Assembly (NCBI GenBank): GCA_024275115.1
Contig: JAJRZT010000029.1
Coordinates: forward strand, 1 to 64,000
Source: Gammaproteobacteria bacterium
GTDB taxonomy: Bacteria > Pseudomonadota > Gammaproteobacteria > UBA6429 > Thiohalophilaceae
Reading direction: 5' to 3'
DNA length: 64,000 bases
Shown here: positions 21,466 through 22,935 of the stretch, one piece after another
How the letters are laid out: the number at the start of each line of letters is the position of its first letter
Numbering within the stretch: position 1 is the first letter of the stretch
Notes under the pieces: generated by a model
What the model was told of the DNA's origin: nothing
The model's input: only the letters and a program-made list of their open reading frames with translations
Databases searched by the model: none
Translations under genes and position numbers: made by a program

Positions 21466-22614
21466 ATGCAACTCGCACCTTATGCAGCGCAACAATCCAG
21501 CTCCCGAGGTCGCCGTTTTGCCGAGGAGTCGCCTCAGTATCGCAGTGACTACCAGCGCGACCGTGATCGTATTATCCATTCTTCGGCCTTCCGCCGTTTA
21601 GAATATAAAACCCAGGTTTTTGTTAACCACGAGGGCGATATGTTCCGCACTCGCTTAACCCACTCCATTGAAGTAGCCCAACTCAGCCGCAGCATTGCGC
21701 GTATTTTAGAACTCAATGAAGACTTAAGTGAAACTATCGCACTGGCACATGACTTAGGCCATACCCCTTTCGGCCATGCCGGACAGGATGCCCTTAATGC
21801 CTGCATGAAAGACTATGGTGGCTTCGAGCATAATTTACAATCATTACGCACCGTCGACAAACTTGAACAAAGCTATGCCGACTTTATCGGTTTAAACCTG
21901 ACCTTTGAATCCCGCGAAGGGATTTTAAAGCACTGCTCGATTAAAAATGCCAGGCAACTCGGTGATGTGGGCGAACGTTTTCTGAATAAAAAACAGGCCA
22001 GTCTTGAAGCACAAACCGTTAATCTCGCCGATGAAATTGCCTATAATAATCATGATGTGGATGATGGCTTGCGTTCCGGGCTTATCGACATTGAACAGCT
22101 ACTTGAGATCCGCCTGTTTAAAGAACAGTTTGATGTGGTCAGCAAACAGTATCCTGACTTAAAGGATCGCCGCCGTATTCACGAAATTATCCGCCGAATG
22201 ATAAACCGGCAGGTCGTCGATCTTATCGACACCACACGGACAAACCTGGGCAAAGCCCTGCCCGACTCCATTGACAGTGTTCGCAACCACACCAGTGAGC
22301 TCGCACATTTCAGCCCCGAAATGCAGGAAATGAATCTGCAACTGAAGCGATTTTTACGCACACAAATGTATGCGCATTACCGGGTTCACCGCATGTCCGC
22401 AAAAGCTGCCCATATCATTCAGCAATTATTCAACGCCTTTCTCAATGATCCAAAGCTGTTAAACCCCAAGTACCAGCAAATTGTCAGCCAAAAAGAGCAA
22501 AAAAATGCTGAACTCGGCAAAGCACGCGCCGTCGCCGATTATATTGCAGGAATGACCGACCGCTATGCGATTGCAGAATATGAAAAGATTTTTAATCCGG
22601 CAGAATTAACCTAA
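21466..22614 (+). CDS. dGTPase-like HD-domain triphosphohydrolase
   Basis: 382 aa. The HD site is visible as [10 protein letters not shown], then [14 protein letters not shown]-terminal [22 protein letters not shown] is typical of the dGTPase-like subgroup. It is expected to split deoxynucleoside triphosphates to nucleoside plus triphosphate; the preferred dNTP cannot be read from sequence. AGGGAACCCACC precedes the start. It sits 33 bp after aroB and two genes before damX, a common gammaproteobacterial order. An unusual palindromic element starts right at its stop codon. Confidence 0.9.
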
Positions 22615-22615
22615 G

Positions 22616-22821
22616 TAACCTGAACTCGGGATAAGAGAAACAAGTCATTAAAACCCACCAACGCGAGGGCAGTAAGCCGGGATTATCCAATAAAGACCGT
22701 CTGCCGCAAGGACGCGGCAGTCGAGTCGCCATGGATGGCATGTTTTGCGTGTCTTTATTGGATAATCCCGGCTTACTGTCCGGTGAATAACCTCTAAATG
22801 CCTTATCCCGAGTTCAGGTTA
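22616..22821. repeat. 206-bp element with nested perfect inverted repeats
   Basis: Outer arms TAACCTGAACTCGGGATAAG (22616-22635) and its exact complement (22802-22821) are 20 bp. Inside, 28-bp perfect arms lie at 22670-22697 and 22751-22778. The core holds CTGCCGC/GCGGCAG and GCCATGGATGGC (22728-22739). TAAG occurs at both edges, which could be a target duplication. It fits between the dGTPase stop and the WGR gene. No transposase is encoded. It looks like a MITE or REP-type palindrome; a structured RNA is also possible. Confidence 0.85.
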
Positions 22822-22935
22822 AGTAGCAACAAAACAACCTAAAAACAAATAGATACCAATGATTTAGTATTATACTATGCTATATTATTAAATATAATTA
22901 ATGAATGTTCACTTGCAACATTCGGTTAAAATAAC

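Follow-up and report, generated by a model that had tools for sequence, protein, structure and literature searches.

A mobile palindrome beside dgt and the two-hairpin core that it carries

Why is a long and almost perfect palindrome kept in the intergenic space behind dgt? The question was addressed for the window, that is, the whole analyzed stretch of 64,000 nucleotides of gammaproteobacterial DNA. The preliminary description of this sequence had reported two concentric inverted repeats between the dGTPase-like gene and the next one, and explained them by recent mobility or by strong selection for a structure. Both repeats are present, with perfect stretches of 20 bp in the outer and 28 bp in the inner one, and the results given below speak for both parts of the explanation.

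The palindrome, its copies and its candidate mobilizer

The outer repeat is formed by the 20-mer TAACCTGAACTCGGGATAAG (positions 22616–22635 and 22802–22821), which may be extended to 25 nt at 92%. The inner arms are 31 nt long at 97%, including the 28-nt perfect stretch, and enclose the small palindrome GCCATGGATGGC (22728–22739). The stop codon of dgt, TAA, occupies positions 22612–22614, and a putative WGR-type gene lies downstream of the palindrome. When folded as DNA, the palindrome region has z = −12.6, with none of 200 shuffles equally stable; the z values for RNA folds are −12.9 (plus strand) and −13.7 (minus strand). The sole ORF of at least 25 aa that is situated mostly within the element has 49 aa, and no Rfam family reached its gathering score in a scan of the whole window (1–64000). 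The features are listed in Table 1.

Table 1. Coordinates of the mobile element and its parts in the window
Feature	Positions	Strand	Basis
Left target-site duplication TAAGTA	22612–22617	.	Sequence; empty site in L318
Complete element, 202 bp (plus is the GGA strand)	22618–22819	+	Sequence, copy search, duplications
Left terminal inverted repeat ACCTGAACTCGGGATAAG	22618–22635	+	Repeat comparison
P1 long stem, left inner arm	22667–22697	+	Inverted-repeat search, fold
Core, 73 nt	22688–22760	+	Match of covariance model R1, 102.4 bits (this copy is among the six used to build R1)
Hairpin H1, CTGCCGC-AAGGAC-GCGGCAG	22701–22720	+	ANGGAN hexaloop 22708–22713
Conserved linker TCGAG	22721–22725	+	Alignment of model-found matches
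Hairpin H2, GCC-ATGGAT-GGC	22728–22739	+	ANGGAN hexaloop 22731–22736
3' junction ATGTTTTGCGT, GCG conserved	22740–22750	+	Alignment of model-found matches
P1 long stem, right inner arm	22751–22781	+	Inverted-repeat search, fold
Right terminal inverted repeat	22802–22819	−	Repeat comparison
Right target-site duplication TAAGTA	22820–22825	.	Sequence

The element is almost certainly a MITE, a non-autonomous mobile element: it is 202 bp long, has 18-bp ends and many copies, is flanked by a duplication, and an orthologous site is empty. Its mobility is well supported. A DNA search of the assembly that contains the window (G000; 2.5 Mb, 83% complete) found the family in 21 distinct places, reverse-strand matches of the same places being uncounted, and both ends are kept in 15 of these copies. 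Among the 13 two-ended copies with both flanks readable, the 6-bp duplication is exact in eight, has one mismatch in four and two mismatches in one; the chance of an exact 6-bp match is 0.00035. The TAAG seen at each edge, previously suspected to be a target-site duplication, proved to be part of a longer one, TAAGTA, whose left copy supplies with its first three bases the stop codon of dgt. The duplicated targets are mostly TANNTA. For 16 of the 21 places the distance to ORFs was recorded, and in 11 of these 16 copies an ORF 3' end lies at most 13 nt from the element end; where the target supplies TAA or TAG, these bases can double as the stop codon, as at dgt.

The sequence of the locus without the element is found in a genome of the same genus, G002 (L318), and the site is also empty in the more diverged L319 and L320; G001 and G004 have no element at the dgt locus. 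A single copy kept at the same locus in distant species, which would speak against a mobile repeat, is thus not what is observed here. The search for the element in three same-genus genomes gave no match.

Five of the 21 copies (in contigs C12, C86, C110, C68 and C82) are located at contig ends, so that more copies have probably been lost in assembly gaps. A phage or a plasmid as the vector was rejected, since the element had no match in plasmid and phage records, and the core and the end pattern had no exact match in viral contigs.

The ends of the element point to an IS982-type transposase as its probable mobilizer. The relative G018 contains a 1,012-bp unit (L036, 510–1521) with the same 20-bp end at one edge and, at the opposite edge, a 20-bp end with four mismatches. 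This unit encodes a broken transposase of the IS982 family (NF033520, 133.1 bits with the cut-off of 130). As in IS982-derived MITEs, terminal repeats are common to the window element and the IS982-family element of G018; compared by eye, the likeness is restricted to the terminal repeat, the cargo of the window element being the two-hairpin core. The transposase protein was found in one of the 30 genomes searched (G018 alone, 11 matches); G020, which also carries the end, is outside this set. No IS982 transposase like that of G018 had a match in G000, which is 83% complete. The claim of IS982 derivation was lowered on this account, yet it is still allowed, since non-autonomous elements can outlive their transposase. 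Elsewhere in G018 (L032, 1603–2903) a truncated IS982-like ORF precedes a 343-aa putative transposase-like ORF.

The core beyond the element

The covariance model R1 was built from six copies of the window's own genome. With this model, the 73-nt core was found in 57 of 369 genomes of the class; at most 13 candidates were scored per genome and many genomes reached that number. In a sample of the phylum, 8 of 299 genomes matched, all eight being Gammaproteobacteria. A degenerate pattern retrieved at least 120 stretches from Xanthomonas, Stenotrophomonas, Shewanella, Alteromonas, Microbulbifer, Nitrococcus and others.

The core usually lies between long arms that differ among genomes yet are complementary. 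Three own copies (L013, L017 and L019) have inner arms unlike the others and still self-complementary. Loci L030 and L031 from relatives are matched in the core only, the arms being unrelated; in L031 they are about 27 bp long and perfect. In G009, arms and ends that do not resemble those of the window element are common to nine of the 11 fetched copies, and two have arms of their own; therefore the core was amplified as part of at least two kinds of unit. The inner palindrome is more than MITE filler, and a selected two-hairpin structure is very likely shared across Gammaproteobacteria, which the preliminary description had not noticed.

Two of the 12 scorable own copies (L014 and L016) carry the core in reversed orientation with respect to the outer spacers, which indicates that the inner arms recombine.

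When applied to 100 of the 103 loci from outside the window's genome (all except L094, L098 and L099), R1 produced 106 matches. Loop conservation is quoted from this model-found set rather than from the regular expression or pattern sets, because the former fixes the GGA of H1, and the pattern behind the 120 stretches fixes A and GGA. The H1 loop has the form C-A-N-G-G-A-Y, with A in 104 and GGA in all 106 matches, and the H2 loop the form C-A-N-G-G-A, with C conserved in 106, A in 105, GG in 105 and the last A in 106; N is variable in both. The stem pairs of H1 vary on both sides, and the linker CGAG and the 3' GCG are kept in 103–106 of the 106 matches. The commonest H2 is TACAGGGATGTA. In 195 of 211 copies, and also in the window, a distance of 23 nt separates the starts of the two GGA.

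Strand of folding and gene context

The covariation score of the core is 0.497 compared to 0.135 in shuffles, and none of 500 shuffles scored as high. In the alignment of the 106 matches (A5), gaps displace the pairs of H2 and the columns of the inner P1, whose paired fractions are low for this reason (54.8% for helix 3, with two P1 pairs mostly unpaired). Mismatches in the arms were counted on the GGA strand at arm positions 5–31 in 213 copies, that is, the regular expression set (GGA required in H1) from all loci collected by then. There were 246 G·U pairs versus 53 A·C, with 207 other mismatches and 4,778 Watson–Crick pairs; the two mismatch kinds, G·U and A·C, are scored alike by the arm alignment. 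After grouping by arm similarity into 77 clusters, 45 had more G·U, 12 more A·C, and 20 were tied (p = 1.3e−5). The excess is seen in each gene context (G·U to A·C 26:10 in sense, 65:17 in antisense, 53:8 in convergent and 18:6 in divergent orientation). Hence folding of the GGA strand is selected, either as RNA or as single-stranded DNA, since the wobble test fits both alike. Together with the covariation, this strand-specific excess substantiates the earlier claim of strong selection for a structure.

Orientation could be assigned for 158 of the 213 copies, using crude calls of ORFs of at least 100 aa and setting aside 24 copies with short flanks, 8 without a neighbor and 23 with distant neighbors. 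Of these, 47 lie between convergent and 16 between divergent genes. Between tandem genes the GGA strand is antisense (62 copies) more often than sense (33 copies; p = 0.004), which does not fit a simple 3'UTR role, and the median distance to the adjacent gene 3' end is 32–40 nt. Promoter asymmetry was sought in 201 copies and none was found, the upstream score being higher in 101 and lower in 88 (p = 0.20); a dedicated sRNA promoter was rejected on these grounds. Of 201 copies, 20 have a run of at least four T behind the hairpin on the complementary strand and 4 have one on the GGA strand, and an intrinsic terminator on the GGA strand was likewise rejected.

The T runs of the complementary strand, the proximity to gene 3' ends in tandem contexts with the GGA strand more often antisense, and the ORF ends within 13 nt of the element in G000 would be expected if the complementary strand acted as a terminator or as an mRNA-stabilizing 3' hairpin, as was proposed for other bacterial MITEs and REPs. 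Transcripts in Yersinia of Ysr224, a multi-copy sRNA whose model gives matches below the cut-off to two related cores, are in line with such a role, as far as the accessible text of the source goes (PMC12112432). We nevertheless consider it unlikely: even where the GGA strand is antisense, it is the one that the wobble pairs favor (65 vs 17), and a terminator has no need of conserved loops or of a conserved junction.

Another reading is that the GGA strand folds as DNA, to be recognized by a single-strand transposase or recombinase like those of REP-RAYT or attC. Integron attC sites are recognized by a recombinase acting on single strands, and G·T wobbles are tolerated in DNA hairpins too. The G·U asymmetry, which persists whatever the gene context and also where the strand is antisense to both neighbors, the absence of a promoter signal and the many genomes with high copy number all agree with this possibility. 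Still, we give it a slim chance, given that no dedicated enzyme was found (the search was not systematic), the loops agree with ANGGAN, for which an RNA-binding protein is specific, and the G000 copies have DDE-transposon-type ends with 6-bp duplications. Harder still to accept is an ordinary selfish IS982-type MITE whose palindrome is kept by arm conversion or template switching and whose GGA loops are functionless in the host: the ends, the duplications, the empty site and the recombining arms conform to it, but the three- to fivefold excess of G·U over A·C on one strand, the conservation of loops and junction across genera with unrelated arms, and the same core without these ends elsewhere are left unexplained.

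Candidate ligand and known systems

The loops of the core resemble sites of the CsrA family. According to the accessible part of one review, the loop bound by RsmE is ANGGAN, the CsrA SELEX site is RUACARGGAUGU, a CsrA dimer bridges sites 10–63 nt apart, and most SELEX hairpins have four or fewer pairs (PMC7652899). The core has the corresponding ANGGAN hexaloops in hairpins, and its 23-nt GGA spacing falls within this range; the strong 7-bp stem of H1 speaks against the CsrA reading when set beside the four or fewer pairs of most SELEX hairpins. We estimate the prospects of a CsrA-family ligand as about even, because the loop, the closing pair and the spacing match an independently known specificity, with transcription still presumed and the orientation awkward.

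No csrA was found in the 83%-complete assembly G000, but the gene occurs in 34 of 40 relatives. In the class, 52 of 57 core-bearing and 260 of 312 other genomes have csrA (p = 0.16), two of the five core-bearing genomes counted as lacking it being so classified by their absence among the matches listed. Among genomes at least 90% complete the respective counts are 45 of 46 and 234 of 267 (p = 0.04). The co-occurrence of csrA and the core is weak.

The closest Rfam family is TwoAYGGAY (RF01731), proposed in 2014 to sequester CsrA, as stated in the available portion of that paper (PMC4333381). The window copy scores 37.7 bits with the gathering cut-off of 43, on the same strand, and none of the 14 own matches exceeds the cut-off; locus L081 from a relative passes it (47.4 vs 43 bits). 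Of the 16 named loci from other genera that were examined, none had a TwoAYGGAY match at the cut-off. TwoAYGGAY and the core have in common a long closing stem that surrounds two hairpins with A-N-GGA-Y loops, on the same strand. The window core differs in being dispersed, multi-copy and MITE-borne. As regards the A-Y-GGA-Y terminal loops of TwoAYGGAY, the window has AAGGAC and AUGGAU, and N may be any base within the family of the core. The sponge sRNAs of the Csr/Rsm systems (CsrB, RsmY, RsmZ) also have ANGGAN hexaloop hairpins, more than one per RNA, while the core has two putative sites, a long closing stem, many dispersed copies and no promoter found.

The explanation that we propose, and for which we see the arguments as evenly balanced, is that an RNA module able to bind CsrA/RsmA was captured by an IS982-type MITE, which would add dual sites near gene 3' ends. 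As its ends, its duplications and the empty site show, the MITE with its IS982-type ends inserts at TANNTA sequences, which are often stop codons, and duplicates 6 bp. Its cargo belongs to the structured family, in which a junction with two short ANGGAN hairpins on one strand is closed by the long P1 stem; this stem would present and stabilize the core. If the GGA strand is transcribed, its two loops may each occupy one face of a single CsrA/RsmA dimer, in the manner of the Csr/Rsm sponge RNAs; every transcribed copy would then titrate CsrA, and each insertion would add a dual CsrA site close to a gene 3' end.

A broader reading, which we regard as doubtful, is that the core forms a major and largely uncatalogued CsrA-binding family, captured repeatedly by unrelated amplifying units (with IS982-type ends here, with others in G009), and that it disperses dual-site decoys whose copy number helps to set free CsrA. 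No report of the core as a mobile CsrA-binding family was found in the accessible text of the open-access literature. In most of the loci examined, the repeat scores under the thresholds that present RNA family models use. Should the CsrA reading be correct, an abundant repeat of Gammaproteobacteria would be a reservoir of global-regulator sites, transposition could rewire CsrA, and the decade-old proposal of CsrA binding by TwoAYGGAY would become directly testable. Should its CsrA part be wrong, a strand-specific, covarying, high-copy structure with a conserved loop and junction still needs a ligand.

Several other candidates were rejected. CGTC-tagged REPs have a stem of 8–9 bp, a loop of 4–5 nt, A-T first pairs and a CCA tail in the available description (PMC3733652), as opposed to the 7-bp stem, 6-nt loop and TCGAG tail of the core. 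Xanthomonas sX9 occurs elsewhere in two loci and differs in sequence by eye, and the Rfam matches to MIR856 and uc_338 are far below the cut-off, on a long hairpin.

The remaining comparisons rest on descriptions in the accessible parts of the papers. YPAL/RU-2 of Yersinia is an intergenic mobile palindrome of about 168 bp with empty sites; unlike the window element, it has duplications of 3 to 26 bp and internal inverted repeats (PMC2229807). Pae-1 of Pseudomonas aeruginosa, a multi-copy intergenic family of 84 nt, resembles the core by description in its paired adjacent stem-loops (PMC2267715). The two CsrA-related sRNAs of Alcanivorax, with five or more GGA motifs each, apparently differ from the window core (PMC9788540). 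The Ysr224 model matches the related cores of L031 and L101 on the complementary strand with 27.3 and 32.3 bits, far below the cut-off of 70. In L031 (1401–1532) this match is opposite to the GGA loops, so that either the strand of Ysr224 was misassigned or both strands are transcribed.
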